Assembly (NCBI RefSeq): GCF_029937855.1
Contig: NZ_JAPYPC010000022.1
Coordinates: forward strand, 1 to 64,000
Source of the DNA: Christiangramia sp.
Lineage (GTDB): Bacteria > Bacteroidota > Bacteroidia > Flavobacteriales > Flavobacteriaceae
Reading direction: 5' to 3'
Length of the DNA: 64,000 nucleotides
Of the stretch, positions 31,467 through 53,331 are shown piece by piece. Position numbers and translations under genes: made by a program. Numbering within the stretch: position 1 is the first letter of the stretch; each line of letters begins with the position of its first letter. The notes below the pieces were generated by a model that did no database searches, was not told the origin of the DNA, and saw only the letters and a list, made by a program, of their open reading frames with translations.

Positions 31467-32720
31467 ATGGATATACCTTTAGAAAAGAAACGATTCACAC
31501 CTAAGAGAATAGCAATTATTGCCGGAATTGTCATTATTGCAAGCCTCATAATTTTTGTTCTATTCTCCTCTACTGGCAACTCCAAACTCAATGTTGAAAA
31601 AGAACGGATCACTATAAGTGAAGTTCAAAAAGGCAATTTCCAGGAGAATATCCCAGTAAATGGTGTCGTGCTTCCTATTAAAACAATCTATCTTGATGCA
31701 ATGGAAGGTGGTCGTGTGGAAGAGCGTTTTGTCGAAGATGGTGCGATGATGGAAAAAGGAGAGCCCATTATAAGATTATCCAACACAGATCTTGAACTAA
31801 GTCTGGTAAACCAGGAAACGCAAGTATATAATTTACTTACACAGATACAGAGGACTCAAAACGCATCAAGACAAAATACAATTAATAGGCTGAACCAGTT
31901 GACCGATGTAAAAAATAGTTTAAAGGAAGCCAAACGGATATACGAATTGAATTCTAAATTATACAAAAAAGGGGCAATTGGGAGACAGGATTACGAGGAA
32001 TCAAAAAATAATTATAATTATCAGCAGGAACGCCTGGATCTTACTCAGAAAGTCCTGGAACAGGATTCGATTTCTTCTAAATTGGAAACCGGACAGGCTC
32101 AGGAATCTTATAATAGAACCAAAAAAGCCTTGGAGTTGATGCGCAGAAAAGTGGGTGACCTGGTTGTAAAAGCACCGGTTGATGGGCAGCTTACCGCATT
32201 GGATGCGGAAATCGGCCAGTCAAAATCAAAAGGTGAACGACTGGGCCAGATAGATGTAGTATCCGGTTATAAAGTTCGTGCCGAAATCGATGAGCATTAT
32301 ATTTCAAGGATTTTCAACGGGCAGCGTGGAACTTTTAATTTTAACGGTAAAGAATATGATTTGGAAATCAAAAAAGTCTTTACCCAGGTTTCAAATGGGC
32401 GGTTTCAGGTGGACATGCATTTTGTGGAAGAAGTGCCGGAAAATATACGGCGTGGGCAGAGTCTCCAGATTAAACTGGCACTAAGCCAGGAAAAAGAAGC
32501 CATTTTGGTTTCCAAGGGAGGATTTTTTCAGCAAACCGGTGGAAACTGGATTTTTAAAATAAATGAGGACGAGGAAACTGCATATAAAACCTCGATTCGT
32601 TTAGGTAGCCAGAACACTGAATATTATGAAGTTTTAGAAGGAATCAATCCCGGGGACCGGGTAATTACGTCGAGTTATTCAAATTTTGGAGATATTGACG
32701 AACTTGTCATCAACGAATAA
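31467..32720 (+). CDS. HlyD/MacA-type periplasmic adaptor (MFP)
   Basis: N-terminal TM, biotinyl-lipoyl-like and coiled-coil regions; VVKAPVDGQLTALDAEIGQ. Confidence 0.9.
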   Translation: MDIPLEKKRFTPKRIAIIAGIVIIASLIIFVLFSSTGNSKLNVEKERITISEVQKGNFQENIPVNGVVLPIKTIYLDAMEGGRVEERFVEDGAMMEKGEPIIRLSNTDLELSLVNQETQVYNLLTQIQRTQNASRQNTINRLNQLTDVKNSLKEAKRIYELNSKLYKKGAIGRQDYEESKNNYNYQQERLDLTQKVLEQDSISSKLETGQAQESYNRTKKALELMRRKVGDLVVKAPVDGQLTALDAEIGQSKSKGERLGQIDVVSGYKVRAEIDEHYISRIFNGQRGTFNFNGKEYDLEIKKVFTQVSNGRFQVDMHFVEEVPENIRRGQSLQIKLALSQEKEAILVSKGGFFQQTGGNWIFKINEDEETAYKTSIRLGSQNTEYYEVLEGINPGDRVITSSYSNFGDIDELVINE

Positions 32721-32764
32721 AACATCATCACTCATTCATCAAAAAACGGACAAATACTTTTAAA

Positions 32765-33454
32765 ATGATAAAGATCACCAACTTAGAAAAATACTATAAA
32801 ACCGAAGAAGTACAAACCATTGCGCTTAATAAGCTTTCTTTTGAAGTAAAAGAAGGAGAATTTGCGGCTATTATGGGACCATCCGGGTGTGGAAAATCAA
32901 CCTTATTAAATATTCTTGGAATGCTGGATGATCCTGATGGCGGAAGTTATCTTTTCAACGGAACTGAAGTCGCTGGCTTTAATGAGCGCCAGAGAGCGAA
33001 ACTTAGAAAGCACAATATTGGTTTTGTTTTCCAGAGTTTCAACCTTATTGATGAACTGAGTGTTTTTGAAAATGTAGAGCTTCCGCTTATCTATACCGGG
33101 GTAAAACCCGCTGAACGAAAAGAGCGTGTACATGAGGTGTTGGAAAAAATGCAGATTATGCATCGCAGAAAACATTTTCCGCAGCAGTTATCGGGAGGAC
33201 AGCAACAGCGAGTTGCTGTAGCCAGAGCCGTGGTAAATAACCCAAAGATCATCCTTGCCGATGAACCTACGGGTAACCTGGACAGCAGCAACGGGAATGA
33301 AGTCATGGACCTACTTACAGAACTCAACGAAGCGGGAACTACCATCATCATGGTAACCCACAGCGAACACGACGCCAAATTCAGCCACCGAATCATCAGG
33401 ATGCTGGATGGGCAAAAAGTAACAGAGAATTTGCTGGCTGAATTTAAAAGTTAA
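32765..33454 (+). CDS. MacB/LolD-type ABC ATPase (canonical motifs)
   Basis: GPSGCGKST, LSGGQQQRVAVARA, ILADEPTGNLDS, VTHS. Confidence 0.95.
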   Translation: MIKITNLEKYYKTEEVQTIALNKLSFEVKEGEFAAIMGPSGCGKSTLLNILGMLDDPDGGSYLFNGTEVAGFNERQRAKLRKHNIGFVFQSFNLIDELSVFENVELPLIYTGVKPAERKERVHEVLEKMQIMHRRKHFPQQLSGGQQQRVAVARAVVNNPKIILADEPTGNLDSSNGNEVMDLLTELNEAGTTIIMVTHSEHDAKFSHRIIRMLDGQKVTENLLAEFKS

Positions 33455-33485
33455 CGAAGGTCATTCATCAATCAAAAACGATCAA

Positions 33486-35867
33486 ATGTTCAAAAACTAT
33501 TTTAAAATAGCGTGGCGGAGTATCTGGAAAAACAGTCTTTACAGCAGTCTTAACATCATAGGTCTTAGTTTTGGTCTTGCAAGCGTCATGACGCTCATCT
33601 TTGTAATCTATGCTTATTACGATGCAGATGCTGTATTGAAAAATAAGGAACAGCTCTATTATCTGCAGAGTGTCTCCACGGATGGGGAAACTTATATGCA
33701 AACCACTTATCCACTTCTTGGGGAAATTGTAAAAAACTCTCCGGAAATTGAGGCAGCTACTCACATTCAGGGATGGAATTCACCCAAATTCAGCTTTCAG
33801 GATAAAAAATTATGGGGAAATACAAGGTATGTAGACACCAGTTTTTTTCAGGTTTTTACACTTCCTTTGAAATATGGTGATCCTGAAACTGCACTAGACG
33901 AAAAATTTTCGGTAGTAATTTCCGAAGATAAATCGCAGCAGCTATTTGGTGATTCCAACCCTATGGGAAAGACTATACAGGCAGATGACAGCATCAACCT
34001 CACGGTTACCGGTGTTCTGGAGCCTTTATCAAATTACGCTTCTATTGATGCCGATATTCTTCTAAATACTTCCCTTTTAATGGATCAACCGGGGTTTAGT
34101 GAAAATGCAAACTGGTATAATTCTTTTGCGGAAAACTATATAAAGCTCAAAAAAGATAGCGATATTCCAAAACTTGAGAACAGAATCAAAGATCTCGTTT
34201 TCCTGAATTATGCCGAGCCTTCCGATCTAAAAATGATTCAGGCACAAAGCTTTTCAAATTTACGAGAGGCAAATAATCCGATGGTGGGAACCATACTAAC
34301 CGGCGCCTTTGCCACTGCCTTTTTTGTATTATTGATCGTATTGGTAAATCTCCTAAACTTGAATACTTCCATCATATACAGCAGGACGAAAGAAATTGCC
34401 ATTAGAAAAATAACCGGGGGCCGAAAAAGAGATCTCCTTATACGCTTTTGTATAGAAAATGGCCTTATCGTATTTATCTCTATGATAATGGGCCTGCTTC
34501 TTTTTAAGATTATACTGCTTCCCGGCCTTAATGAAATTATAGGAAACCAATTTGGTACTGTCCATTTCGATTTTATAAATGATCTTGATGTCCTGTTAAT
34601 TTTTATAGGCTTAGGAATCGTAATAAGTCTCATAGCTGGAATACTGCCATCTTTAAAATTTGTTTCCATTCCCGTGGCAACTGCCATAAAAGGAAAACTG
34701 AACTTTTCAGGTAAAAACTTATTCGTTAGAAACACCTTCATCACAATACAGTTTGCGCTGGCGATCATTTTTATTTGTATGGCTTTGGTGCTAAATCGCC
34801 AGATTGATTTCATGAAAAATTCACCCCTGGGCTTCAATGAAAACAACGTAAGCCTCATTCCTCTCAATTTGGAGATACATGATCAGAAAACTGCAGGTGC
34901 CCATTTTAATTCAATTTTGAATAAGTTAAGGATGAATCCTTATGTAAAGGGTATTTCAACCACATCCATGATTCCTTCAGCCTATCACTATAACTATAAT
35001 ACTTATTACGAGCCTGAAACGGGGCAGGAGGTCAAACTACGGCATACCGGTGCAGATGTAGGTTACGTTGAAACCTATCAAATTTCATTAGCCGAAGGTG
35101 AAAATTTCAGAAATGAAAATTATGATAAGGAGTCACCCTCGATTATGATCAATCAGAAAGCTATGGAAGCTTTGGGTTGGAAATCTATAAAAAATAAATA
35201 TTTAAAGGAAAAAAATGGCGATGCAATTTACAATGTTGTGGGGGTTATGGAGGATTTTCATTATCAAGACATGCAACGTAAAATCGAACCGCTGCTCCAT
35301 TGGAATACGAACGAACCGAGGCTTGAAGGGAATAGTTACCTAAGCATAAGAATAGATCCCGCTCACAAGACAGCAATTCTTAATGATCTAAAAAATGAGA
35401 TCAAAAACGCATTTCCGGAAAGCGAAATTGAAAGCTTTGATATCAAGGAAAAATTAAGCGCCCAGTACACCCTGATCGAAGGTATTTTGAAAACTGTAAA
35501 TTATGTGGCTTTTCTCGCAATAATCATTTCCTGCCTGGGAATGTTCGGACTTATTTCCCTTATCGCAAAGAAACGTGTGAAGGAAATTGGAATACGAAAA
35601 ACTCTAGGAGCTAGTGCAAAAAAGATCGTATTCCTGCTTTCAAAAGATTTCATCAAACTGGTGCTTATCTCAGCTCTACTGGCATTACCACTTACCTGGT
35701 TATTAATGACTGTCTGGTTACAAGATTTTGCCTATCGTATTGATCTTCACTGGTGGATTTTCGCGGCCGGTGGGATAATCGCACTTGCTATTACATCTGC
35801 CACCGTTGGCTTTCAAGCCATTAAAGCAGCATTAGCTAACCCTGTAAAATCTTTAAGAACAGAATAA
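33486..35867 (+). CDS. FtsX/MacB-type ABC permease 1
   Basis: FKNYFKIAWRSIWKN start, REIAIRKITGG, KEIGIRKTLGAS, NPVKSLRTE end. Confidence 0.93.
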   Translation: MFKNYFKIAWRSIWKNSLYSSLNIIGLSFGLASVMTLIFVIYAYYDADAVLKNKEQLYYLQSVSTDGETYMQTTYPLLGEIVKNSPEIEAATHIQGWNSPKFSFQDKKLWGNTRYVDTSFFQVFTLPLKYGDPETALDEKFSVVISEDKSQQLFGDSNPMGKTIQADDSINLTVTGVLEPLSNYASIDADILLNTSLLMDQPGFSENANWYNSFAENYIKLKKDSDIPKLENRIKDLVFLNYAEPSDLKMIQAQSFSNLREANNPMVGTILTGAFATAFFVLLIVLVNLLNLNTSIIYSRTKEIAIRKITGGRKRDLLIRFCIENGLIVFISMIMGLLLFKIILLPGLNEIIGNQFGTVHFDFINDLDVLLIFIGLGIVISLIAGILPSLKFVSIPVATAIKGKLNFSGKNLFVRNTFITIQFALAIIFICMALVLNRQIDFMKNSPLGFNENNVSLIPLNLEIHDQKTAGAHFNSILNKLRMNPYVKGISTTSMIPSAYHYNYNTYYEPETGQEVKLRHTGADVGYVETYQISLAEGENFRNENYDKESPSIMINQKAMEALGWKSIKNKYLKEKNGDAIYNVVGVMEDFHYQDMQRKIEPLLHWNTNEPRLEGNSYLSIRIDPAHKTAILNDLKNEIKNAFPESEIESFDIKEKLSAQYTLIEGILKTVNYVAFLAIIISCLGMFGLISLIAKKRVKEIGIRKTLGASAKKIVFLLSKDFIKLVLISALLALPLTWLLMTVWLQDFAYRIDLHWWIFAAGGIIALAITSATVGFQAIKAALANPVKSLRTE

Positions 35868-35881
35868 TCAAATCCTTCATC

Positions 35882-38299
35882 ATGATCAGGAACTATTTAA
35901 AAATAGCTTTACGAAATCTCTGGAAAGAAAAAACCTTTACCGGACTGAATGTTATTGGTCTTACAGTAGCCTTTGGAGTAGCATTCCTGTTATGCGCTTA
36001 TGCACTTTTTGAACTTTCCTATGATCAATTCCACGAAAACAAGGATTCTATTTATCAGGTGTATACCAACCAGGAAACACCACAAGGGACCGAATCCAGC
36101 GATTCCAATCCGGTCCCTTTTGCAGCAGCCTTACAATCTGAAGTTCCAGGGGTTAAAAAAATTTCGCGGTATACCAGCGGTGGCCCTGCGGTAAGATATA
36201 ATGATAAAACTTTTAGAATTAGTGCTGTTTGGGTGGATCCAGATTTTTTTGATATGTTCACATTTCCCGTTATTCAGGGGAAAAGCGAAAACCCTCTTTC
36301 CGAAAAGACCTCTATGGCCCTTACAGAGGAAACCGCAGCCCGCCTCTTCGGCGATGAGAATCCACTGGGTAAAACACTGGAGCTTCAACAAAATGGGGAA
36401 CAGGTTCCTGTTACAGTTACAGCCGTTCTGGAAAATTATCCTGCTTCCAGTTCCATAGGTTTCGAAGCAGTCTTTAACTTTAAAAACCTACCAAACAGAG
36501 TATATGCAGATAATATAGATCGGTGGGACAAGCACAATCATAACGTGTACCTACAGCTTGATAATAGTATTTCTATTGAACAGTTTGAAAATTCAACCAA
36601 AACTTTTTCTGAATTACATTTCGCCAATGACATAAACAATGCAAAAAGGGATGGTGCGCAGGCCAATCCTGATGGAAATTATCGACAAATAAAGTTACTT
36701 CCTGTACCCGACCGCAGTTTTGTGAGCATTGAGAAAGGGGTATTGAGCGTAAGCAAAACTTTGCAATACCTGATTTTGGCAATTGCCTTGCTGATTTTAT
36801 TTATTGCCAGTGTGAATTTTATAAATATGAGCATTGCCAAAGGTGCCAACCGTTTACGCGAAATAGGAATGCGTAAGACCCTGGGTGCGGGCAAAAGTCA
36901 ATTATTCTTGCAATTTTGGGGAGAAAGTCTCATAATATTTATGATTTCAATAGTACTGGGTGCTTTACTTGCTTCGGCCTTGTTAAAACCATTTCAGGAT
37001 TTATTCAGGACCGAAGCTTCATTGCAGGTCATACTCCATCCAGGTAACATTTTAGTCCTTTCTCTAAGCCTTTTACTTATTACATTCATCGCTGGCGGTT
37101 ATCCTGCTTTGTTAATGAGCAAACTGGGAATATTGCAAGCCTTAAAAGGCAAAATGAAGGCGACCGGCAAAAATAAGGTTCGAGACGTATTAATAATTAT
37201 ACAGTTTAGTATAGCAATTGTGTTGATCAGTGGAACGCTTGTTCTCTGGAATCAGTTGGAATTTATGCGGTCTAAGGAGCTTGGGTTTAATAAAGAGCAG
37301 GTTATTTCTTTACCTATAAGCAGTTCGAAAAGTGATAAGCAAATTCTACAACTCCTTCGCGATGAACTGCAAACCAATCCAAATATTCTTAGTGTTTCGG
37401 CCTCGAATAATATTTTGGGTATGGGTAAAGATAGGACTTCGATGACCAGTGTGATGGGATTCGAATACCAGGGCCGCGAGGTAAAAACAAATATACTCGC
37501 AGTAGATTATGATTATACAGAGACATTGAATATAAATGTTTTAGAGGGCCGAACATTCAGCCGGAATTATGCAGCTGATAGTTTATCTGTTGTTATCAAT
37601 GAGTCTATGGCAAAACAATTTACTGAAGAAAATCCGCTCGAAATTAATCTTAATATAGATGACAAGCTATTCAAAGTTATAGGCGTAATAGAAGATTTCC
37701 ATTTTCAAGATCTTAATAAAGAAATTGAGCCCCTCAGCCTTTTCATGAATCAAAGCAGTGCATTGCGATATGCCTATATAAAAGTCAAACCAGGAAACCT
37801 TTCCGGAGCCTACGACGAGATAAAATCGACATGGAATAAAATTGAACCTGAACGGGAATTTTTAGGTTCTTTCCTGGATGAAAATATTGACCGTACCCTC
37901 ATGAAAGAACGTACGATGACCACTATGATAAGCAGTGGTTCCATCCTCGCGATTATGTTAAGCTGTATAGGCCTTTTTGCTATATCATTACTGGTCGTAT
38001 CACAAAGACGTAAAGAAATTGGAATTAGAAAAGTCGTCGGTGCCAGTGTGGGTAAGATCACCCTGATGCTAACCTCAGATTTTCTAAAACTCGTTGGGAT
38101 TGCATTTTTGATCGCTACCCCAATTGCCTGGTATTTCAGTAGGGAATGGCTACAAAATTATCCCTATCGGATCGATCTGAATATCTGGATCTTCCTTTTC
38201 GCGGGTATCATCGCTATAGGAATTGCCATTTTCACCATCAGTTTCAGGACGATCAAGGCAGCCATTCAGAACCCGGTTAAAAGTTTAAGAACTGAATAA
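35882..38299 (+). CDS. FtsX/MacB-type ABC permease 2
   Basis: LREIGMRKTLGAG, KEIGIRKVVGAS, NPVKSLRTE end. Confidence 0.93.
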   Translation: MIRNYLKIALRNLWKEKTFTGLNVIGLTVAFGVAFLLCAYALFELSYDQFHENKDSIYQVYTNQETPQGTESSDSNPVPFAAALQSEVPGVKKISRYTSGGPAVRYNDKTFRISAVWVDPDFFDMFTFPVIQGKSENPLSEKTSMALTEETAARLFGDENPLGKTLELQQNGEQVPVTVTAVLENYPASSSIGFEAVFNFKNLPNRVYADNIDRWDKHNHNVYLQLDNSISIEQFENSTKTFSELHFANDINNAKRDGAQANPDGNYRQIKLLPVPDRSFVSIEKGVLSVSKTLQYLILAIALLILFIASVNFINMSIAKGANRLREIGMRKTLGAGKSQLFLQFWGESLIIFMISIVLGALLASALLKPFQDLFRTEASLQVILHPGNILVLSLSLLLITFIAGGYPALLMSKLGILQALKGKMKATGKNKVRDVLIIIQFSIAIVLISGTLVLWNQLEFMRSKELGFNKEQVISLPISSSKSDKQILQLLRDELQTNPNILSVSASNNILGMGKDRTSMTSVMGFEYQGREVKTNILAVDYDYTETLNINVLEGRTFSRNYAADSLSVVINESMAKQFTEENPLEINLNIDDKLFKVIGVIEDFHFQDLNKEIEPLSLFMNQSSALRYAYIKVKPGNLSGAYDEIKSTWNKIEPEREFLGSFLDENIDRTLMKERTMTTMISSGSILAIMLSCIGLFAISLLVVSQRRKEIGIRKVVGASVGKITLMLTSDFLKLVGIAFLIATPIAWYFSREWLQNYPYRIDLNIWIFLFAGIIAIGIAIFTISFRTIKAAIQNPVKSLRTE

Positions 38300-38323
38300 T
38301 CCAGACCTAAAAACATATAAAAA

Positions 38324-40708
38324 ATGTTTAGAAATAATTTTAAAATAGCGTTGAGAAGCCTGAAAAAAAATAAGGCATATACTGCTATCAATATCCTGGG
38401 GCTGGCGGCCGGAATGGCGAGTTTCATTATTGTTCTTCTAGCTCTTAATTATGAACTGAGTTATGATACCTGGGATCCAGAACTCCGGCAAGTTCATAAA
38501 GTGTCCATGCGTGTAAAAGATGAAATTTTTGAAGCAACCCCTGCACCATTAGCCTCTTTTCTCAATGAGAAATATCCCAAAGTGGAAGCAGCTACTTCCC
38601 TTCAGGGAACTGGTGAATACGAAATACTTATAAGTGCAAATGAAAAAAGTATTTATCAAAAAGGATTTACCTCAGCAGACTCTCTCTTTTTACAGGTTTT
38701 TCCTTATCATCTAAGTCAGGGAAACAGGACTACGGCATTCAATGCTCCAAATGCTGTTTTAATCAGTGAGGAACTTTCGCAGAAACTCTTTGGGGATGCA
38801 AATCCCATGGGAGAGACCATTAAGGTTTTTAATGTCATGGAAGGTGTGATCACAGGCGTCATGGAATTACCGGAAACACCCTCTCATCGTAATATGCATC
38901 TCGTAATGCGAGACCCATACGAACAACAGAACTTTTTCTGGAATAATCATTCTTATGAGACTTATATCAAACTTCACCAACAAATTCCTGAACTTGAACT
39001 AGAAAAAGACCTCAATAGGATCTATTTTGAAGAGCGAATATTGCAAGATGAAAATTTAAAGGAAGCTTATAAAAAATCGGATAACAAAACTATCCTATTT
39101 ACTGATTCGGTTCCCGATATTCAAAATTTTTCGAAATACGGTTCCAGTAATATTAAAACAATTTCTATACTTTTTATCCTGGCAGTTCTCCTCCTTCTAA
39201 TAGGGGCAATTAATTTCAGTAATCTTACGGTAGCCAAATCTCTAGGAAGAACCCAGGAAATTGGAGTTAGAAAGGTCCTGGGATCAGGACGAAAAAACCT
39301 GATTTTTCAGTTTATGAGTGAAACGTCCTTACAATGTGCTATTAGTTTAATCATAGCACTAAGTGTTGTTTTGATAAGTTTACCCTATATCAATAGTTCC
39401 CTTAATCTTCAGTTAAGCTTTTGGGCACAAAATTCCTGGTCTTTATTCCTCCAGATTGGTCTTTGCCTTTTTATCCTTGTTTTACTTTCGGGCATATATC
39501 CATCTTTTTATCTCTCTGGGTTTAAAATTGTGAATGTTCTAAAAGGAAATATTTCTTTTGGAAATAAGGAATGGAGTTTTAGAAATATACTGGTGATATT
39601 TCAATTTATGGTAACGGTCTTTTTTGTTATTGTCATTTTGGGAGTAAACAAACAGCTCCATTTTATTCAAAACAAAGATAAAGGATTTACCGGGGAGCAG
39701 GTCATGCGTATTGAGGCTACACAACCTACCCGGGAGGAGGGCTTTCAGCAAGCACGAAACGCACTACTTTCCATACCCGGGGTTAGTAGTATCTCAAAAA
39801 CAACTACAGTACCCGGCGATAAAATAGCAGATTCTTCTACCTATAATTTTGACTATAAAGGTGAGAAAATAAGAATGGGATCGGTAAAGGTAAGCACCGA
39901 TTATTTTAAAACTTTGGAAGTTCCATTACTTGCGGGACGATATTTTAATGAATCTTTTGCAGATCAAAATACCCGTAACGCAATTATTAATGAAACTGCA
40001 GCAAGAAAATTATCTTCTAACCCTATTGGAGAAACCATTTCGTTTGGCGGATGTGATGAAGGAACTGTCAAGATAGTGGGAATAGTAAATGATATAAACG
40101 TACACGGTTTCCAGTCTAATGTGAAACCCGCTGTCTATACTATTGAAAATAAAGCCTGCATGTACCAGTCTGGTGGAGCTATCCTGGTAAAACTCAAATC
40201 AGATAATATTAATTCATCCATAACCGAAATACAAGAGGAATGGAAACTAATTGAACCTGATTTCCCTCTGCGATATTCCTTTCTGGATGCAAATTTTGAA
40301 AAGTTATTTAGTTCTTATTTAAGGCTGGAAAAGATCATTAGCTTTTTTGGTGGCATTGCCATCTTAATTTCAATCATGGGCCTATTTGCCTTAACCGCTT
40401 TTATGATTAGGCAGCGAAATAAAGAAATAGGGATACGAAAAGTTTTAGGGGCAAATATTAAAGATCTTACTGCGCTTTTAGGCAGAGATTTTTTAATCCT
40501 GGTATTTATAGCAAGCTTAATAGCCATTCCCATAGGATATTGGGCGCTTAACGAGTGGCTTCAGGATTTTGCTTATAGAACCACGATTCAATGGTGGATT
40601 TTTGTGACAGCGGCATCTACTGTATTTTTAATTGCACTTTCCATCGTGAGCTTCCAAACTGTAAAAACCGCTTTACAAAATCCTGTGAAAAGTCTCAGAA
40701 CGGAATAA
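38324..40708 (+). CDS. FtsX/MacB-type ABC permease 3
   Basis: QEIGVRKVLGSG, KEIGIRKVLGAN, NPVKSLRTE end. Confidence 0.93.
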   Translation: MFRNNFKIALRSLKKNKAYTAINILGLAAGMASFIIVLLALNYELSYDTWDPELRQVHKVSMRVKDEIFEATPAPLASFLNEKYPKVEAATSLQGTGEYEILISANEKSIYQKGFTSADSLFLQVFPYHLSQGNRTTAFNAPNAVLISEELSQKLFGDANPMGETIKVFNVMEGVITGVMELPETPSHRNMHLVMRDPYEQQNFFWNNHSYETYIKLHQQIPELELEKDLNRIYFEERILQDENLKEAYKKSDNKTILFTDSVPDIQNFSKYGSSNIKTISILFILAVLLLLIGAINFSNLTVAKSLGRTQEIGVRKVLGSGRKNLIFQFMSETSLQCAISLIIALSVVLISLPYINSSLNLQLSFWAQNSWSLFLQIGLCLFILVLLSGIYPSFYLSGFKIVNVLKGNISFGNKEWSFRNILVIFQFMVTVFFVIVILGVNKQLHFIQNKDKGFTGEQVMRIEATQPTREEGFQQARNALLSIPGVSSISKTTTVPGDKIADSSTYNFDYKGEKIRMGSVKVSTDYFKTLEVPLLAGRYFNESFADQNTRNAIINETAARKLSSNPIGETISFGGCDEGTVKIVGIVNDINVHGFQSNVKPAVYTIENKACMYQSGGAILVKLKSDNINSSITEIQEEWKLIEPDFPLRYSFLDANFEKLFSSYLRLEKIISFFGGIAILISIMGLFALTAFMIRQRNKEIGIRKVLGANIKDLTALLGRDFLILVFIASLIAIPIGYWALNEWLQDFAYRTTIQWWIFVTAASTVFLIALSIVSFQTVKTALQNPVKSLRTE

Positions 40709-43159: not shown

Positions 43160-45598
43160 ATGATCAGAAATTATTTCAAAATTGCGTGGCGGCATATCTG
43201 GAAACATAAAATATTCTCATTGATCAATATCATTAGCCTTGCCATAGGTTTAAGTGCCTCCTTTGTAATAGGGATGATGGTGTACTATGATTTTACCTTT
43301 GACAAATTTCATCCCGATGGTGATCGTACATACAGAGTTACTACTCAATTTAATGATCCTGAAGGTGGCCGTGTTAGTGCTGGGATTCCGTTTCCATTAG
43401 TTGATGTGGTTAAAAATGATGTTACAGGATTAGAAACAGCCGCTTTTTTCCACCAATTCCAATCAGTTAATGTAAAACCTACGGGAACTGAGGAGCTATT
43501 CAAACAACAGGATTTTGTGGTATTTGCTGACCAAGGCTATTTTGAATTACTCGAATACCAATGGCTTGCTGGCTCCCCCCAAAAAACATTATCTAAGCCC
43601 AATGAGGTTGTACTTACAGAAGATAGAGCAAGACTCTATTTCCCTAATTTATCCCCATCCCAAGTAATGGGAAAAACATTAAATTATAATGACTCTATAC
43701 CTGCAGTCGTTACTGGAGTAATAGCAGATTTTAAAGAACGTAGTGATATAATCTTTCAAGAGTTCCTATCACTACATACGGCTCCTCAAACCAATATTGC
43801 CCATCAAATATCAGGTAATAACTGGTATGGTGTTTACAATACATCGCAACTCTGGGTCAAACTTGAGAAGAAAACTTTATTAAATAACTTCCAGGCTCAA
43901 TTGGATGATATCGCAGAAAAACATCAAATGAAAGAAGATGTGAAATCAGGATCAACCCGTGAATTTCACATTCAACCTTTAACGAATCTGCACTTTAATA
44001 ACGAATTAGGTATTTACGATCCAGAAACGGCTGTAGCAGATAAGAAAGTTCTCTTCATGTTAGGATTGGTAGCACTGTTTTTATTGCTATTAGGATGTGC
44101 TAATTTCATCAATCTTAATACCGCACAAGCCTCAAAAAGAGCCAAAGAAATAGGCATTAGAAAAACACTGGGAAGTTCCAAAGGCCAGTTAATCTTTCAA
44201 TTTTTGGGAGAGACATTTTTGCTGACAATTTTTGCTGGGATTGTATCGGTCCTTTTATCTTTTTGGCTTTTAAGAATCTTTGATGATTTTATAGCCGAAG
44301 GCATTGATATATCCCTATTGATGAACCCAGTCATCTTGTTCTTGATAGGATTATTACTCGTTATAGTAACCATTACGGCAGGATTTTATCCAGGAATTAT
44401 TTTGTCAAAATTTAAGCCCGTGCGTGTGTTAAAAGGAAAAAATACAGAAGCTGGCAGTAAAAACGAACTTAGAAAATTCCTTACCATATTCCAGTTTACC
44501 ATCGCTTTTGTCTTTATTATCTCTACAATTTTAGTTGGTAAACAGATTAGTTTCTTGATCAATAAGGATATGGGTTTTAAAACTGAATCTGTTGCTTTTA
44601 TGGAGACACCTTATTATCTTTCTAGTTCAGACAAACAAGAACTTCTCGCCCAAAAGCTTGCAAATCTATCCGCGCTTAAAAAAGTAAGTTTAGGCGGTCA
44701 GTCGCCAGCTTCTTTTGATCAATCTACTACTTTTTTTATCTCCAATCATGATGGGATAGAAAGAAAAACAAGTGTACGCATGCTTTTTGGCGATACAGAA
44801 TACCTCGATCTGTATGAAATCCCAATACTTGCTGGTAGAACACCCTTAAATGACACTATTAAAGAAATAGTCATTAATACAAAAGCCCTTGAAAAAATGG
44901 GATTCACAAACCCAAGTAAAGCTTTAAACCAAACGGTGACCTCTGGCGGCGTTCCCTATTCCATTACAGGAGTGATGGCTGATTTCAATCAAGGCTCCCT
45001 CAAACAAGAGATTGAACCCATGGCATTTGTCGGCGGTATGTGGCACTCTAGTTTTGAGGTCATTCATTTTAGCTTTTCTACTGAAAATTACGAGGACTTA
45101 AGCACCACGTTGGCACAAGTAGAAAACACGTATAAAGAGGTTTACCCTGAAGAAACGGTTGATCTAAAATTTATGGATGAAACTATCCTTACCTTTTATA
45201 AAAAAGAACAAAGCATGTCAAAACTCATTACTTGGGCTATGGCTCTTTCGGTTTTGATAAGTTGTCTGGGACTTCTAGGATTAGTAATTCACACCACAGA
45301 ACGCCGTACGAAGGAAATAGGAATTCGCAAGGTGCTAGGCGCATCTATTAGGCAGATCAACATCATTTTGTGCAAGGACTTTTTGATCTTAATCGTAATA
45401 GCTTTTGTTATTGCAGCCCCCATTACATATTGGTTACTTAATGATTGGCTACAGGATTTTGCCAATAGAACGGAACTGAGCTGGTGGATCTTTGCCGGTG
45501 GTGGTTTTTTTATGATTGTTTTAGCTCTGGCTGTAATGAGTGTAAAAACAATAAGTACAGCATTACAAAAACCCGTTAAAAACCTAAGAACTGAATAA
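43160..45598 (+). CDS. FtsX/MacB-type ABC permease 5
   Basis: MIRNYFKIAWRHIWKHK start; KEIGIRKTLGSS, KEIGIRKVLGAS; PVKNLRTE. Confidence 0.93.
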   Translation: MIRNYFKIAWRHIWKHKIFSLINIISLAIGLSASFVIGMMVYYDFTFDKFHPDGDRTYRVTTQFNDPEGGRVSAGIPFPLVDVVKNDVTGLETAAFFHQFQSVNVKPTGTEELFKQQDFVVFADQGYFELLEYQWLAGSPQKTLSKPNEVVLTEDRARLYFPNLSPSQVMGKTLNYNDSIPAVVTGVIADFKERSDIIFQEFLSLHTAPQTNIAHQISGNNWYGVYNTSQLWVKLEKKTLLNNFQAQLDDIAEKHQMKEDVKSGSTREFHIQPLTNLHFNNELGIYDPETAVADKKVLFMLGLVALFLLLLGCANFINLNTAQASKRAKEIGIRKTLGSSKGQLIFQFLGETFLLTIFAGIVSVLLSFWLLRIFDDFIAEGIDISLLMNPVILFLIGLLLVIVTITAGFYPGIILSKFKPVRVLKGKNTEAGSKNELRKFLTIFQFTIAFVFIISTILVGKQISFLINKDMGFKTESVAFMETPYYLSSSDKQELLAQKLANLSALKKVSLGGQSPASFDQSTTFFISNHDGIERKTSVRMLFGDTEYLDLYEIPILAGRTPLNDTIKEIVINTKALEKMGFTNPSKALNQTVTSGGVPYSITGVMADFNQGSLKQEIEPMAFVGGMWHSSFEVIHFSFSTENYEDLSTTLAQVENTYKEVYPEETVDLKFMDETILTFYKKEQSMSKLITWAMALSVLISCLGLLGLVIHTTERRTKEIGIRKVLGASIRQINIILCKDFLILIVIAFVIAAPITYWLLNDWLQDFANRTELSWWIFAGGGFFMIVLALAVMSVKTISTALQKPVKNLRTE

Positions 45599-45635: not shown

Positions 45636-45649
45636 TAAAAACATTTATC

Positions 45650-48055
45650 ATGATCCGAAATTATCTTAAAACCGGCTCGCGGAATATCATCAAGAACAAA
45701 GGTACATTTGCAGTAAATATTATCGGGCTAGCACTTGGAATAGCGTCAGTGATCATGATTATGCTGTATGTATTGGATGAACTAAGTTATGATCGTTTCA
45801 ACGAAAAGGCAGATCAGATAGTTCGGGTGGTTTTTAAAGCTGAAGTGAACGGAGAACAAATGAACGAAGCCGTAGTGATGGCTCCTGTCGCGCAAACCTT
45901 GAAAAATGATCTACCGGAAGTGACTCAAGCAACCCGGCTGGCAAAATCCTATAACAATCGTCTGGAACATAAGGGTATTTATTACGGCCAAAGCGAATTG
46001 GGATATGTTGACCCTAATTTCTTTGATGTATTTACACTGCCTATCATCAATGGAAACAAAAATACCCCGCTCGATGAACCCAATTCTGTGGTTATTTCTG
46101 AATCTTTAGCTAAAAATATCTTTGGTAATACCGAGCCCATAGGAAAAACGATCACAGTTTCAAACCGGGATGAGCAATTATACGTTTCCGGGGTAATGAA
46201 AGATATTCCGAAGAATTCTCATTTTCACTTTGACTTGCTGGTTTCCACACTTGGATATGATCAGGCACAAAAGACGAGCTGGATGGAATCAGATTTTTTT
46301 ACATACCTGGTCTTAAAGGAAGGTGCCGAAGTTGCTGAAGTAGAAGCAAAATTACCCGCAATCACTAAGAAATACATGGGACCGCAAATGATGGAGGCTA
46401 TTGGAATGTCTTACGAAGAATTTCAAAAGGATAATGATATAGGACTTTTTCTTCAACCTTTAACTGATATTCACCTGCATTCAGATTTTTCTGATGCAAC
46501 CACCCTTGAACAAGGTGGTGATATCAAATATGTTTATATTTTTAGTGCTATTGCTATTTTTATGCTGGTCATCGCATGTATTAATTTTATGAACCTGGCT
46601 ACGGCCTCTGCATCCAAACGGTCAAAAGAAGTAGGCATTCGAAAAGTACTTGGATCTAATAAAAATCAGCTTATTTATCAGTTTTTAGCGGAAGCTTTTA
46701 TCTCAACGATTATCGCCGCTGTCCTGGCAAGTGTTCTTTTCGCTTTGTCCATCCCATTTTTTAATCAGCTCGCAGGAAAAACCATCGAATTTTCTACCAT
46801 ATTAAACCCGGCATACCTCCTCTCCCTTTTAGGTTTAATCTTTCTGATTACTATACTGGCAGGCGCTTATCCTGCATTTTACCTATCTTCTTTTAATCCG
46901 CTAAATGCCTTAAAGTCGAAATTTTCAGGAAACGGTTCAGGAATACGTAGCGGACTTGTAGTCTTTCAGTTTGTGATTTCTGCAGGGCTTATTCTGGCGA
47001 CTTTAGTAGTGAGGGAACAAATGAACTATATTCAAAATAAGGATCTCGGATACGAAAAAGATCAGCTCCTGGTAATCAAGGACACCTATCTTTTGGAGAA
47101 TAATGAAGATAATTTTATCCAAGAGATCGAAAATGATCCCCGTGTAGCTAGTGTTACCCATTCTGCATTCGTACCGGCCGGGGAAAGTGATAATGAAGTA
47201 GGAGGAACTTTCCAAAACGGTGAATTTTTACGCCGAATGTATTTCTATAATGTTGACGAGAATTATATCCCAACCTTGGGAATGGAATTATTGCAGGGGC
47301 GAAATTTTTCAAAAGAATTTGGTGATGAAAGTGATAAGGTGATTATTAACGAAAAAGCTGCTGAAATCCTTGGCTTTGGAAAAGATGCCGTGGGCAAAAC
47401 CTTTCAGAGAGATACCCGGGAAGGTTTGAAAGACATCACTGTAATGGGGGTAATTAAAAATTTCAACTGGAAATCATTGCACCAGGAAATAGAACCGCTC
47501 ATTCTGAAAAAGAATCCATACGGCGGAGTCATCTTAAGATCAAAATCAGCCAATATGTCGGGGATTATTGAAAAGCTGAATTCTACTTGGAATCAATATA
47601 ATCCAAGGGAAGTTTTGAACTATAGTGTGCTGGACGACTCATTTCAACATACCTATTTAAAAGAACGTAAAATGGGAACCATTCTTACACTCTTCGCGAT
47701 TCTCACCATTATCGTTGCCTGTCTTGGATTATTTGGCCTGGTAACTTTTACTGCAGAACAGCGATTTAAAGAGATTGGTATTAGAAAAGTTCTGGGATCT
47801 TCTGCAACACAAATTGTAGCACTTTTATCAAAAGACTTCCTAAAATTGGTGGCTGTCTCTTTCTTGATCGCTTTCCCGCTATGTTTCTATTTAATGAACA
47901 GGTGGTTACAGGATTTCGCCTACCGGATCAATATTCAATGGTATTTATTTGTGTTGGCTGCCGTGATCACATTAGGAATCGCCTTTCTCACCATTGGAAT
48001 AAAGAGTTTTAGGGCGGCCAGCATCAATCCTATTAAAAGTTTAAAAACCGAATAA
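45650..48055 (+). CDS. FtsX/MacB-type ABC permease 6
   Basis: KEVGIRKVLGSN, KEIGIRKVLGSS; NPIKSLKTE. Confidence 0.93.
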   Translation: MIRNYLKTGSRNIIKNKGTFAVNIIGLALGIASVIMIMLYVLDELSYDRFNEKADQIVRVVFKAEVNGEQMNEAVVMAPVAQTLKNDLPEVTQATRLAKSYNNRLEHKGIYYGQSELGYVDPNFFDVFTLPIINGNKNTPLDEPNSVVISESLAKNIFGNTEPIGKTITVSNRDEQLYVSGVMKDIPKNSHFHFDLLVSTLGYDQAQKTSWMESDFFTYLVLKEGAEVAEVEAKLPAITKKYMGPQMMEAIGMSYEEFQKDNDIGLFLQPLTDIHLHSDFSDATTLEQGGDIKYVYIFSAIAIFMLVIACINFMNLATASASKRSKEVGIRKVLGSNKNQLIYQFLAEAFISTIIAAVLASVLFALSIPFFNQLAGKTIEFSTILNPAYLLSLLGLIFLITILAGAYPAFYLSSFNPLNALKSKFSGNGSGIRSGLVVFQFVISAGLILATLVVREQMNYIQNKDLGYEKDQLLVIKDTYLLENNEDNFIQEIENDPRVASVTHSAFVPAGESDNEVGGTFQNGEFLRRMYFYNVDENYIPTLGMELLQGRNFSKEFGDESDKVIINEKAAEILGFGKDAVGKTFQRDTREGLKDITVMGVIKNFNWKSLHQEIEPLILKKNPYGGVILRSKSANMSGIIEKLNSTWNQYNPREVLNYSVLDDSFQHTYLKERKMGTILTLFAILTIIVACLGLFGLVTFTAEQRFKEIGIRKVLGSSATQIVALLSKDFLKLVAVSFLIAFPLCFYLMNRWLQDFAYRINIQWYLFVLAAVITLGIAFLTIGIKSFRAASINPIKSLKTE

Positions 48056-48065
48056 ATATAGTAAT

Positions 48066-48830
48066 ATGAAAAAGTCAGTTTTAATTAAAAGCAAATTATT
48101 GATCGTTTTATTGATAAACGTTTTCAGTTTCAATTTAAGCAATGCTCAATCTGAAACAGTTGAAGTTTCCAGCTTTTCTGAAGTTACGATAAGTCCTTAT
48201 ATCGAAGTGGTCTTCAAAGAATCTGATGAAGAATCTGTGGTAATCGAATATTCCCGGATTGAGCGCAACAAGATCAATATAGAAAATGATGGAAAGGAAC
48301 TGCATATTTACCTGGAAGATGCTAAGATCGTTTCAAAAGAAGAAGAGGTTGAGATAAATGGTCGTGAAATGGATCGCTCTATTTATAAAGGTACAGAAGT
48401 ACGCATTACGGTAAATTATAAGCAGCTAGAAGAAGTTGAAATTCGCAGTGAAGAACAAATCACATTCGAAAATCCAATCAATACTGAAGACTTTGACCTG
48501 GACATATATGGCTCTACCAAAGTCTTTTTTGAAAGTATCACTGCTAAAGATTTTAAGGTTGCCATTTATGGAGAAAGCTATCTGGAGGTAAAAGGTGGAA
48601 ATGTAGGGTTTCAACACTACCGTTGTTACGGAAAAAGCGAGATACATACGATTGATCTTCTTTCTAAAGAGACCAAAATTGCTGCATATGGAAACAACCA
48701 TATCATCGTAAATGTTTCTGAAAAACTAAAAGTTTCTGCATTTGGCGAAGCGAGAATTCAATATAAAGGGAACGCCAAAGTGAATAACGGACTCAAAATA
48801 GGAGAAACCGTCATTCAAAAAATCGATTAA
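48066..48830 (+). CDS. Secreted GIN-domain (DUF2807) protein
   Basis: Signal peptide; repetitive beta-helix-like pattern (FDLDIYGSTKVFF, FKVAIYGESYLEV, ETKIAAYGNNHIIV, LKVSAFGEARIQY). Confidence 0.8.
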   Translation: MKKSVLIKSKLLIVLLINVFSFNLSNAQSETVEVSSFSEVTISPYIEVVFKESDEESVVIEYSRIERNKINIENDGKELHIYLEDAKIVSKEEEVEINGREMDRSIYKGTEVRITVNYKQLEEVEIRSEEQITFENPINTEDFDLDIYGSTKVFFESITAKDFKVAIYGESYLEVKGGNVGFQHYRCYGKSEIHTIDLLSKETKIAAYGNNHIIVNVSEKLKVSAFGEARIQYKGNAKVNNGLKIGETVIQKID

Positions 48831-48849
48831 ATCATCGAAATATTCATCT

Positions 48850-51234
48850 ATGTTTAAAAATTTCATCAAAATATCCTGGCGAAGAATTAAAGCCGACAAA
48901 ACATTTTCATTCATCAATATTCTTGGGCTGGCTATAGGCCTTACCATTACGCTTCTTTTGTTCCTTTTTGTTATGCAGGAACGCAGTTTTGACCAGATGT
49001 ATGTGAATAAAGAGCGTATCTACCGGGTAATCTTCCATACAACCGATAAGCGAGACAATGAGATCTGGGCAACTGTACCCGCCGCATTGAAACCGGCCGC
49101 TTCTGAAGAAATTCCGGAAGTTGAAAGATCTGCCAGACTTTGGGATCATGATTTCGGAAAAACAGCCTCTATTGAAGCTAATCAAGAACAATTTACCGAG
49201 CCTAAATTGTATTATGCCGATCGTGAATTCTTTGATATTTTTCAACTGGAATTTATTCATGGTAGCGCACAGAATCAACTGGAAAAACCAAATAGCATCG
49301 TCCTTTCAGAGTCAACTGCTAAAAAATATTTCGGTAATGCTAATCCCATTGGGGAGATCATTAGTATCGATAACAAAAAGAAAATGGAAGTGACCGGAGT
49401 TTATAAGGATTTCCCCTCAAATTCCAGCCTGGATGGAAATATGATCGCTTCTTTTAGTTCGGTAGGTTTTTATAATGATCCCACGTGGGGAAATGCCAGT
49501 TTCGAAACTTATTTTTTATTAACTGAAAATGCTGATGTAGCTTCTGTTCGTAATAAATTACAGGATGTGGTAGACACCAATGTTCCAAAGGAAGATCAAT
49601 GGTACACCCTGGGATTACAACCTTTAGAAAGAATGCATCTCTTTTCTTCGAATATAAAAAGTGCTTATTCTTCTAAAATCGGGAGTATCGAAGAGGTAAG
49701 GAATTTTAGCCTGCTGGCAATTTTAATTCTGCTTATTGCATGTATTAATTATATGAACCTGGCCACCGCAAGATCTCAAAAAAGCACGAAAGATGTGGGC
49801 ATCAATAAAACCCTGGGAGCTCCCAGCAAGTTACTTATCCTACGATTTTTTACGGAAACCGGGTTTGTTACCTTGCTCGCTATTATCCTATCTATCATCC
49901 TGACGGTCACAACGATTCCACTTTTTGAAAATATTGTGGGTACAGAACTTTCCCTTCACTTTCTATGGTCATTCCAATTCATAGCGGCGATCATCGGGAT
50001 TTGGATTATTACCACTTTTATAGCGGGTTCTTTTCCTGCCTTTCACCTTTCAAAATTCTCCCCCATGGAGGTTATTAGGTCTGGAAAGGATAAAGAGAGT
50101 TTTACCGCGCTGCTAAGAAAAGGACTGGTAGTTGTTCAGTTTTCAGCTTCTATTATTTTGATCATCAGTGCTATTGTAATCTACAATCAGCTGGAGTTTA
50201 TACGGAATAAAAACCTTGGTTATAACCCCGAAAACACCCTGGCTGTATCTATTGCTGCGGTGAATTCTGAAAATGAGCAGGAAACATTAATTAAAGAATT
50301 TGAAGTGCTGCCTGAAGTTTCTTCTGCTACTATGACCCAGGGATATCCGGGCATTTCAGTAAGTGGTCGTTCGCTCTATAAAAATATGAATTCAGATGAG
50401 GCGATGTCCCTGCAAACCAATCGTGCGACAGGAGGTGTTGTTGAAACTTTACAGCTAAAATTACTCGCTGGAAAAGATCTTCCAGAAAATAAACAGGAAG
50501 GAGATTCGATCGTAGACGTGGTACTAAATAAAAAAGCGGTGGAATTTCTGGGAATAAGTCCGCAGGAAGCCATAGGCAAAAATCTTATTGCGCAACTTGG
50601 ACCTAACGCTTACGTAATAGGAGTAGTAGATGATTTCAATTTTTCCTCCCTGCGGTCTCCAATTGGCGGCTATGCTTTTAATAATGGTTTTGAACCTCTA
50701 AGGTATATGCTCGTTCGTTTTAAAACCGAAGATCTTCCCGAAACTTTAGATAGTTTTAAAAATCGATTTAACCAGGTAGTTCCGTCTTCTGCATTCGATT
50801 ATAATTTCCTGGACAAGAATGTAGAAAAAATGTACGAAAGGGATCAGCGTACCGCCTCCATCGCCCTGACCTTTGCCGGACTGGCAATTTTTGTAGCCTG
50901 CCTTGGTTTATTTGGACTTGCTGCCTTTATGGCTGAACAGCGCACTAAGGAAATAGGAGTTCGAAAAGTACTGGGTGCAAGTGTAGCTGGTATCACCAGG
51001 TTACTCACTAAAGACTTTATCAAACTGGTTTTAATTGCGCTGATCATTGGTTTTCCTATGGCCTATTGGCTTGTTAACAAATGGCTTCAGGAGTTTGTAT
51101 ACCGTATAGAAATCAATTATCAAATTTTCTTATATGCCGGGATCATAGCAATTTTTATTGCACTGGCCACGGTTAGTTTTCAGGCGATAAAAGCCGCAAT
51201 TTCAAATCCTGTAAATTCATTACGCAACGAATAA
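48850..51234 (+). CDS. FtsX/MacB-type ABC permease 7
   Basis: MFKNFIKISWRRIKADK; KDVGINKTLGAP, KEIGVRKVLGAS; NPVNSLRNE. Confidence 0.93.
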   Translation: MFKNFIKISWRRIKADKTFSFINILGLAIGLTITLLLFLFVMQERSFDQMYVNKERIYRVIFHTTDKRDNEIWATVPAALKPAASEEIPEVERSARLWDHDFGKTASIEANQEQFTEPKLYYADREFFDIFQLEFIHGSAQNQLEKPNSIVLSESTAKKYFGNANPIGEIISIDNKKKMEVTGVYKDFPSNSSLDGNMIASFSSVGFYNDPTWGNASFETYFLLTENADVASVRNKLQDVVDTNVPKEDQWYTLGLQPLERMHLFSSNIKSAYSSKIGSIEEVRNFSLLAILILLIACINYMNLATARSQKSTKDVGINKTLGAPSKLLILRFFTETGFVTLLAIILSIILTVTTIPLFENIVGTELSLHFLWSFQFIAAIIGIWIITTFIAGSFPAFHLSKFSPMEVIRSGKDKESFTALLRKGLVVVQFSASIILIISAIVIYNQLEFIRNKNLGYNPENTLAVSIAAVNSENEQETLIKEFEVLPEVSSATMTQGYPGISVSGRSLYKNMNSDEAMSLQTNRATGGVVETLQLKLLAGKDLPENKQEGDSIVDVVLNKKAVEFLGISPQEAIGKNLIAQLGPNAYVIGVVDDFNFSSLRSPIGGYAFNNGFEPLRYMLVRFKTEDLPETLDSFKNRFNQVVPSSAFDYNFLDKNVEKMYERDQRTASIALTFAGLAIFVACLGLFGLAAFMAEQRTKEIGVRKVLGASVAGITRLLTKDFIKLVLIALIIGFPMAYWLVNKWLQEFVYRIEINYQIFLYAGIIAIFIALATVSFQAIKAAISNPVNSLRNE

Positions 51235-51248
51235 ATAAATTTTAAAAA

Positions 51249-51914
51249 ATGCTAAAATTAGAACACATTTATAAATGGGTTTCAGCCGGCGGGAGAAGAA
51301 TTTTTCTACTGAACGACCTAAGTCTGAAGGTTGAAAAAGGAGAGTTTCTTTCTGTGATGGGTCCTTCTGGATCTGGAAAATCAACTTTATTGAACATAAT
51401 TGCCATGCTGGACGAATTCCAGGAAGGAGAATATTATTTCGAAGAGGAGGCTATTCATCAATTGAAATCGAAAAAGCGAACAGAGATTTTTAACCAAAAT
51501 ATTGGCTTTATTTTCCAGGCATATCATTTACTGGATGATCTCACTGTCTATGAAAATATTGAAACTCCCCTACTTTATAAAAATGTAAAGAGTTCAGAAA
51601 GGAAGGCCCTCGTGGGAGATATTCTGGATCGTTTTAACATTGTAGGTAAGAAGGATCTTTTCCCACATCAGCTAAGTGGGGGACAGCAGCAACTGGTAGG
51701 AATAGCCAGGGCGCTAATAATAAAGCCAAAACTCATTCTTGCCGATGAACCTACCGGAAATTTAAATTCTAAGCAAAGCGACGAGATCATGCAACTATTT
51801 CAAGATCTAAATAAAGAAGGGGTTACGATCATCCAGGCAACCCATTCTGAAAGTAATGCCAAATATGGTTCCAGAACTATACACCTATTAGACGGAAGCG
51901 TCTCCAAAAAATAA
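51249..51914 (+). CDS. MacB/LolD-type ABC ATPase 2 (variant motifs)
   Basis: GPSGSGKST, LSGGQQQLVGIARA, LADEPTGNLNSKQ, ATHS. Confidence 0.93.
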   Translation: MLKLEHIYKWVSAGGRRIFLLNDLSLKVEKGEFLSVMGPSGSGKSTLLNIIAMLDEFQEGEYYFEEEAIHQLKSKKRTEIFNQNIGFIFQAYHLLDDLTVYENIETPLLYKNVKSSERKALVGDILDRFNIVGKKDLFPHQLSGGQQQLVGIARALIIKPKLILADEPTGNLNSKQSDEIMQLFQDLNKEGVTIIQATHSESNAKYGSRTIHLLDGSVSKK

Positions 51915-51924
51915 ACTTATCATT

Positions 51925-53331
51925 TTGAAAAAATTCATCATTCTATTTATTATCATCACCCACGGAATCTATGCTCAGAATTCTTCTGAAAAAGCATTAT
52001 CACTAGAAGAATGTATTCAGATCGCATTGGAAAATAATATTGATCTGGAAAGATCTAAACTGCGATCAGAAACAGAGGAACTCAATTTCCGTGGAACCAA
52101 ATCTGATGTTCTACCTGCCATAAACGCTAGTTATAGTTACGCAGTAACTAAAGGGCGGAGTATTGATCCCTTCACCAATGATGTAATAGATCAACAATTT
52201 AATTATAGTAATGCCGGTTTGCGATTGAATACACAAATTTTTAATGGATTTGAATTAAGGAATAGTATCCAGCGGGACCGTTTCAATATGCAAGCCGCAG
52301 AGGCGGAAAAAGAAGCCGTCAGGCAGCAATTGGTACTGGACGTTACACTTGCATATTTTCAGATTTTAAATAATCGAGACCTCCTCAGGATTACAAAGTT
52401 AAGACTAAAAAGTACCGAACAGCAAATGGAAAGGATCAAAAGCCTGTATGATGAAGGAGAAGGGAATCCTGCTGATTATAGTGATATCAAAGGACAACTA
52501 GGTAGCGATATGTCCGCTGTAATAGCTACAGAAAATCAACTAAAGCAGTCAAAACTCAATCTCGCCCTACTAATAAATTTAGATTCTAAAATTAACATCG
52601 AGGAGTTCCACGTATTGCCAGAAATGCAGGAATATGCTTTATCTGCGGAAGAAATTTATTCCGAGTCACTGGAAAATCTGGAAGTTTTTGAGGGACAGCG
52701 ATTACGAATAAATGCTGCAGAAGAAGATGTAGCGGTAGCGCGATCTTTATTTTCCCCGCAAATTTCCCTTTTTGCCCAGCTTAACACTAATTATTCAAGC
52801 CTGGCCAGCTTATTAAATGAAACCGGAACCCAGATCGTAGAAACCGGACAGTTTATTAGTATTGACGGTATTAATTATGCCGTTCAGACCAACCAGAGCC
52901 AGTTCTCCCAGCAGGATATCCCTTATTTCGATCAGCTCAATAATAACCTCAGCAGTGTTGCAGGCATTAGTGTGGATATCCCGATTTTCAATGGATTCAG
53001 AGCAAAGAGACAGGTAGCCTTAAAGAAGATCCAGCTGGATGATGAGCGACTTCAATTGGAAAATACAAAGAATGAATATTTACAAGCGATTAAACAGGCG
53101 CTTTCTGATATGAATACGGCTTACGAGGATTATTTTTTACTCCAGGAACAGGTTGCAGCTTATGAAGAATCCTACGAGATAAACGAAATCAGGTTTCAAA
53201 ACGGTGTTTCTAATCTTGTTGCATACATCATAAGCAAAAATAATCTGGATCGTTCAAGAATCAATCTTGCAAATGCTAAATACGAATATTTAATTCGTAC
53301 AAAGATTCTTGATTATTACCGGGGGCTTTAA
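51925..53331 (+). CDS. TolC-family outer membrane efflux protein
   Basis: Signal peptide; LSLEECIQIALENNIDL; coiled-coil repeat typical of OEP family. Confidence 0.92.
   Translation: MKKFIILFIIITHGIYAQNSSEKALSLEECIQIALENNIDLERSKLRSETEELNFRGTKSDVLPAINASYSYAVTKGRSIDPFTNDVIDQQFNYSNAGLRLNTQIFNGFELRNSIQRDRFNMQAAEAEKEAVRQQLVLDVTLAYFQILNNRDLLRITKLRLKSTEQQMERIKSLYDEGEGNPADYSDIKGQLGSDMSAVIATENQLKQSKLNLALLINLDSKINIEEFHVLPEMQEYALSAEEIYSESLENLEVFEGQRLRINAAEEDVAVARSLFSPQISLFAQLNTNYSSLASLLNETGTQIVETGQFISIDGINYAVQTNQSQFSQQDIPYFDQLNNNLSSVAGISVDIPIFNGFRAKRQVALKKIQLDDERLQLENTKNEYLQAIKQALSDMNTAYEDYFLLQEQVAAYEESYEINEIRFQNGVSNLVAYIISKNNLDRSRINLANAKYEYLIRTKILDYYRGL

Follow-up and report, generated by a model that had tools for sequence, protein, structure and literature searches.

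Tripartite ATP-binding cassette (ABC) exporters are usually described with one permease per pump. The locus studied here raises the question why one adaptor and one outer-membrane channel should be encoded together with seven. It occupies positions 31467-53331 of a 64,000-nucleotide stretch of Christiangramia sp. DNA (contig NZ_JAPYPC010000022.1, positions 1 to 64,000; the whole stretch is called the window). This 21.9-kb cluster, with all genes in one direction, encodes a periplasmic adaptor (membrane fusion protein, MFP), an ATPase (ABC1), permeases P1 to P6, a GIN-domain protein, permease P7, a second ATPase (ABC2) and a TolC-like outer-membrane efflux protein (OEP). A preliminary description left two answers, permeases as alternative modules sharing ATPase, MFP and TolC, or heteromeric complexes. 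Judged from sequence, we propose with a probability of about 0.6 that the array is a modular, sigma-54-switched tripartite ABC exporter, in which interchangeable fused permeases share ABC1, MFP and OEP.

Organization of the array

All open reading frames (ORFs) of the array are intact, including the seven permeases. The ∼22-kb co-directional array of the preliminary description, with one MFP, two ATPases, seven full-length permeases, a GIN protein and one TolC-like protein, was thereby confirmed in all its parts:

31467-32720, plus strand: MFP, HlyD/MacA-like periplasmic adaptor (HlyD domain match)
32765-33454, plus strand: ABC1, DarD/LolD/MacB-like ATPase (domain match), putatively shared
33486-35867, plus strand: permease P1, eight transmembrane (TM) helices and two periplasmic domains (domain matches, TM prediction, AlphaFold2 pLDDT 86.1)
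35882-38299, plus strand: permease P2, groups with P2 of Nonlabens, Cryomorpha and sampled genome G321
38324-40708, plus strand: permease P3
40762-43137, plus strand: permease P4, start corrected
43160-45598, plus strand: permease P5, nearest relative in Gillisia limnaea (82%)
45650-48055, plus strand: permease P6 (AlphaFold2 pLDDT 84.9; nearest full-length fold YbbP)
48066-48830, plus strand: GIN-domain (DUF2807) protein, probably exported, an optional part (domain match)
48850-51234, plus strand: permease P7
51249-51914, plus strand: ABC2, second ATPase lineage, motifs intact
51925-53331, plus strand: OEP, TolC-like outer-membrane factor (domain match)

For P4 the ATG at 40762 (MFRNYLKIAWRN...) replaces the mechanical ORF start at 40591, which overlaps P3. 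With this start the intergenic gaps measure 10-53 bp, and the 21.9-kb array is presumably read as a single transcript. Both ATPases carry intact Walker A, LSGGQ, Walker B (ILADEPT) and H-loop motifs. An Rfam scan of the array gave no match. The stop of OEP overlaps by 4 bp with that of the convergent gene 53328-54482, which belongs to an integrative and conjugative element (ICE).

Permease architecture and conservation

Each permease of ∼800 aa consists of two MacB-like halves fused in one chain, as seen for P1 in two MacB_PCD and two FtsX stretches, and 316 of the 360 permeases of sampled arrays have exactly eight predicted TM helices. The term "split MacB-type" used previously is therefore partly wrong, since fused chains with eight TM helices rule out split half-transporters. 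With MacB_PCD and FtsX domains, units of four TM helices and a LolD/MacB-like ATPase, the system falls among the Type VII (MacB/FtsX) ABC transporters. The AlphaFold2 models of P1 and P6 are confident, and in the PDB the nearest full-length fold for P6 is YbbP, followed by MacB, LolE and BceB. YbbAP combines two ATPases with one fused permease (PMC12646458). Considering this stoichiometry and the fused double unit, one permease should be the complete transmembrane part and, together with two ATPase copies, a complete transporter. A fusion with eight TM helices and no linking helices is not among the layouts in a review of the MacB family (PMC5985334).

The N- and C-terminal motifs reported earlier as common to the permeases recur in 55 aligned permeases, in which M1, K7, R11, N793, P794, S797, L798 and E801 are each conserved to at least 90%. 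Among the seven permeases of the window, mean identity is 0.47 for the ATPase-facing parts and 0.35 for the TM parts. The periplasmic domains, whose comparison had been proposed, are the least alike (0.24 and 0.22), and the 55 permeases follow the same trend from ATPase-facing parts to periplasmic domains.

Distribution and permease sets

Of the genomes sampled, 96 of 301 in the family and 121 of 396 in the phylum have an MFP relative (E <= 1e-40). Besides 60 neighbourhoods taken from whole genomes, the comparison included nine that belong to named genomes (Gillisia, Gramella AN32, Cryomorpha, Dokdonia, Nonlabens, Flaviramulus, Cyclobacterium, Mucilaginibacter); with two duplicates removed, 67 distinct ones remained in addition to the window (G-numbers denote sampled genomes, L-numbers sampled loci). 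The recurring layout is a histidine kinase (HK) and response regulator (RR) pair beside MFP-ABC1-permeases-(GIN)-ABC2-OEP, with ABC2, GIN and OEP being optional. Across the phylum an array holds 1 to 13 permeases, the high counts being minima as several large arrays run past the end of the sequence stretch. Permease-cluster sets are nearly unique, with 62 different sets in 67 arrays, a count that includes the window and omits one neighbourhood lacking permeases. The unit also exists with a single permease (G267, G227, G429, G717).

Recent tandem duplication was ruled out as a source of these sets, because for 338 of 356 permeases the closest counterpart comes from a different genome and not from the array itself. 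By this measure the permease repertoires are old rather than recently amplified. The unit is scattered within the genus, with 9 of 25 genomes carrying it; among the matches listed, full-length fused permeases occur only inside arrays, and the 16 congeners lacking an array have half-size matches only. P2 of the window groups with its Nonlabens, Cryomorpha and G321 counterparts (support 100/98 and 100/100), apart from the P2s of five congeners. ABC2 of the window, by contrast, shares 85-92% identity with congeners and 79% with Nonlabens. This P2 would thus be an exchanged or differentially kept cassette.

Several permeases encoded together, apparently in one operon, might also assemble obligately into heteromers round one adaptor and channel. 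Yet each permease already holds two half-transporter units with eight TM helices, one-permease arrays exist, permease sets vary freely to the point of being nearly unique, and in some arrays ABC1 is the only closely matching ATPase nearby (see below). We regard this second answer of the preliminary description as highly improbable.

A shared ATPase

Closely matching ATPases were looked for in the 40-kb stretch around each array. ABC1 was the sole close match in eight sampled arrays with 2, 3, 5 or 8 permeases. These include G693, with five permeases, and G463, with eight, for which more than 11 kb beyond the array was checked; a plasmid array of Hymenobacter volaticus has three permeases and one ATPase. 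Together with the one-permease units and the 62 sets in 67 arrays, the eight arrays support the view that the permeases are alternative modules sharing ATPase, MFP and TolC.

Alternatively, ABC1 could drive one subset of permeases and ABC2 another, resulting in two interleaved exporters that share MFP and OEP. ABC2 is indeed a separate, conserved and intact lineage in the same operon of most arrays, and among arrays whose end was reached, those without ABC2 mostly hold 1-3 permeases. However, the arrays of G693 and G463 reach five and eight permeases without it, and ABC2 has no fixed partner, as the permease directly upstream belongs to 19 different clusters among 48 arrays. We therefore consider such a division unlikely.

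Sharing of ABC1 by the permeases would also be compatible with its conservation. Mean identity of ABC1 to the window is 88% within the family and 82% within the class, compared to 80/60 for FtsE, 75/62 for LolD and 77/63 for the MacB-type ATPase of the same genomes, and it exceeds that of LolD in every one of the 38 genomes examined outside the genus. Of the other parts of the array, ABC2 reaches 73/69 and MFP 70/59. Apart from ABC1 the locus shows no unusual conservation, so whole-locus transfer does not account for the difference. The conservation of ABC1 and the pattern in the permeases fit, but do not prove, one motor constrained by many partners. When ABC1 and ABC2 were compared by region, the helical subdomain did not stand out (0.895 vs 0.901), and the comparison adds nothing to this argument. 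In the family, permease number and ABC1 identity correlate (Spearman 0.46, p 0.018), but as this result came from one of several comparisons, we place no weight on it.

Regulation

The divergent genes for an HK and a sigma-54 regulator at 28582-31261 are part of the unit, because the same pair stands divergent beside MFP in most sampled arrays. The RR-MFP promoter region spans 205 bp and holds two candidate elements:

28582-29967, minus strand: histidine kinase (HATPase_c), two TM helices with a very short loop, no periplasmic sensor domain
29915-31261, minus strand: NtrC-type sigma-54 response regulator (domain matches to receiver, Sigma54_activat and Fis HTH)
31343-31371, plus strand: upstream site CGAACA-N3-AGTGT-N8-CGAACAC (motif recurs in several genera)
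31424-31438, plus strand: sigma-54 -24/-12 promoter element TGGCACTATATTGCC, located 43 bp ahead of the start codon of MFP

A chance promoter was rejected, since a sigma-54 element reaches the threshold in 34 of 49 RR-MFP regions, compared to 9.8 expected for shuffled sequences; it usually stands 38-57 bp ahead of MFP. In the same 49 regions the strict motif of the upstream site occurs in 11 (0.0 expected) and a looser form in 15 (0.01 expected). Of the 25 genomes searched, seven of the eight congeners with an array have the site once, at the array, and none of the 17 other relatives has it. The site is missing in G005, where HK-RR is displaced from MFP. It is the probable binding site of the NtrC-type regulator.

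The layout with two TM helices and almost no loop, found in most HK orthologues of sampled arrays as well, means that the kinase does not sense by a periplasmic domain. By analogy to Bce systems, its stimulus may be transporter activity. One could go further and regard some permeases mainly as ligand sensors that signal to this kinase while others export. Besides the kinase, the genome-unique upstream site before MFP and the fold similarity to BceB agree with such a sensor-plus-pump. The regulator, however, is NtrC-type and not OmpR-type, and the permeases have eight TM helices and two periplasmic domains against the ten TM helices of BceB, so that we find this arrangement quite improbable.

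Mobile context

The array is carried by a Tra-type Bacteroidota ICE, with tra genes, relaxase, coupling protein and RteC all present:

10915-13523: relaxase (DUF5712) and type IV coupling protein
21429-28142: TraE/F/G/I/J/K/M/N
57455-58339: RteC

The array lies between traE, which extends to 28142, and the gene at 53328 onward of an RteC-HTH-rep-dnaC module. Such a backbone is widespread, a dnaC relative being present in 93 of the 301 genomes of the family, and in G192 (L229) traE lies ∼1 kb from dnaC; most simply, the array is therefore cargo placed between the two. The preliminary description was right to assign the window to a conjugative element, but the element is not part of the system: tra homologues occur near the array in only 2 of the 67 other neighbourhoods (G321, G260), and an ICE-defined system was rejected. 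Arrays in many genomes without mobile genes had been named there as evidence to the contrary; such arrays are frequent and speak against the link to ICE, not against the array itself. Two congeners, G013 and G017 (L062-L065), carry arrays that agree at 98.6% of nucleotides along 17.5 kb, while their flanking DNA has diverged and matches in short pieces at 88-93%, which suggests recent exchange.

Redundant paralogues could also have been kept by chance on a mobile element, and ICE-borne and plasmid-borne arrays do exist. None of the seven ORFs is disrupted, though, a truncated permease occurs in only two sampled arrays (G192, G631), and chassis and upstream site are strongly conserved across genera. 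Such inert accumulation is scarcely credible.

Further loci were noted in passing. In L060 (G012) and L070/L071 (G009) the array lies near an mnmE-like gene; in G009 the two are separated by what by eye is an integrase-like gene, a possible island site. On the H. volaticus plasmid NZ_CP095069.1 (L238), the genes for MFP, one ATPase and three permeases have a divergent sigma-54 regulator and HK beside them, and neither a TolC-type gene nor a second ATPase directly follows the permeases. Elsewhere in the window are:

1215-2094 and 9034-10027: a pair of SSB-like and RadC-like genes, present twice with nearly identical proteins, flanking a 7-kb stretch
6618-8432: protein of 604 aa that matches nothing in Pfam at E 0.001
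13810-19694: genes that also look like ICE cargo, with an HK/response regulator pair divergent from those for a TonB-type outer-membrane protein and a protein of the Porph_ging family
19927-21306: alpha-amylase with C-terminal domain, adjoining the tra operon
58384-60789: 801-aa protein with a class I/II aminotransferase domain and an acetyltransferase/FemAB-like domain, adjoining RteC

Proposed mechanism

From the gene content, the fused permeases, the intact ATPases, the promoter with its upstream site, the modular sets and the conservation of ABC1 we infer the following working model. One chassis (MFP, ABC1, OEP and usually ABC2) would serve a set of interchangeable fused permeases. Each of these, its single chain uniting two Type VII half-transporters, would join two copies of ABC1 (or ABC2) to form an alternative pump. 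Its periplasmic domains would dock to MFP, and mechanotransmission would drive a periplasmic or inner-membrane substrate out through OEP. Substrate choice would lie with the diverged periplasmic domains, while the conserved cytosolic loops and termini would fit the common motor. We guess that the substrates are envelope-active compounds such as antimicrobial peptides or lipids. For expression on demand, the sensor-less HK would phosphorylate the NtrC-type regulator, which would bind the upstream site at 31343 and fire the sigma-54 promoter at 31424 of the 21.9-kb operon.

Some observations weigh against a shared chassis with freely exchangeable permeases. OEP was not detected in many of the arrays sampled at class and phylum level or on the H. 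volaticus plasmid, and the outer-membrane channel may often be supplied from elsewhere. Modularity can also be obtained by differential loss from a larger ancestral set, and the high conservation of ABC1 could have another cause. As ABC2 is present in most arrays, labour may be split between two ATPases. Finally, P6 and P7 hardly vary within the genus, so that the permeases need not all be equivalent.

If our proposal is true, up to 13 permeases per ATPase and adaptor, an own sigma-54 switch and near-genome-specific sets represent a different route to export range, and such a unit is seen riding on a conjugative element and on a plasmid. Dozens of Bacteroidota genes annotated anonymously as "ABC transporter permease" or ADOP would become parts of one testable system.

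Comparison with known systems

No named family exceeded its curated cut-off, the ADOP, DarBCD and MacB models all falling short. The DarBCD darobactin exporter (NF038008/NF038010/NF038007) has an adaptor, a separate ATPase and a fused permease of ∼780 aa, and its models are the best named matches for MFP and both ATPases of the window. Scores remain below the cut-offs for permease (179/700 bits), adaptor (188/450) and ATPase (299/375), and the window differs by its seven permeases, two ATPases and own sigma-54 switch. No daropeptide precursor or synthase was noticed in the window, for which no specific search was made. ADOP (TIGR03434) matches over the full length of 800 residues and likewise comprises fused permeases in multiple copies. 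P1 and P6 reach 258-300 bits (cut-off 622), and none in 40 genomes exceeds it. Unlike orphan ADOPs, the permeases of the window stand with adaptor, TolC and ATPases, ABC1 and ABC2 being in the operon. In Dyadobacter, many RAST "ADOP" copies (28 and 33) were noted with no function given (PMC11573002).

The tripartite plan, an HlyD-type adaptor and TolC-type channel in the operon, the MacB_PCD/FtsX domains and the fold are shared with MacAB-TolC. MacB is an ATPase-fused homodimer with four TM helices and one permease per system (PMC5985334), whereas the window has separate ATPases, ABC1 and ABC2, and permeases with eight TM helices and two periplasmic domains per chain. Against the MacB model P6 and P1 score 55-72 bits (cut-off 966). 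The array would thus operate as a tripartite exporter of the MacAB kind, yet the separate ATPase and the fused permease preclude membership in MacAB. YbbAP(-TesA) resembles it in the fused two-unit permease, the separate ATPase and the nearest full-length fold (9ge6), but YbbP has two extra linking TM helices (PMC12646458), and YbbAP has one permease and neither adaptor nor TolC. The smaller P. gingivalis operon PG0682-PG0685, for which transcript data exist, also combines several FtsX-type permeases with one ATPase (PMC12040651, PMC10101095). Bce-type detection modules likewise encode a sensor-less kinase with two TM helices together with a transporter, but have one extracellular domain in a permease with ten TM helices.

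In the open-access literature we found no functional account of such permease arrays. Somewhat more tentatively than for the locus itself, we suggest a general export platform of Bacteroidota, with one ATPase, one adaptor and one regulator driving exchangeable, complete fused permeases, which might widen its substrate range by gaining or swapping cassettes between genomes, ICE and plasmid included. Group II ECF (energy-coupling factor) transporters and MsmK are import systems with a shared ATPase, and the platform may be likened to their Type VII export counterpart.

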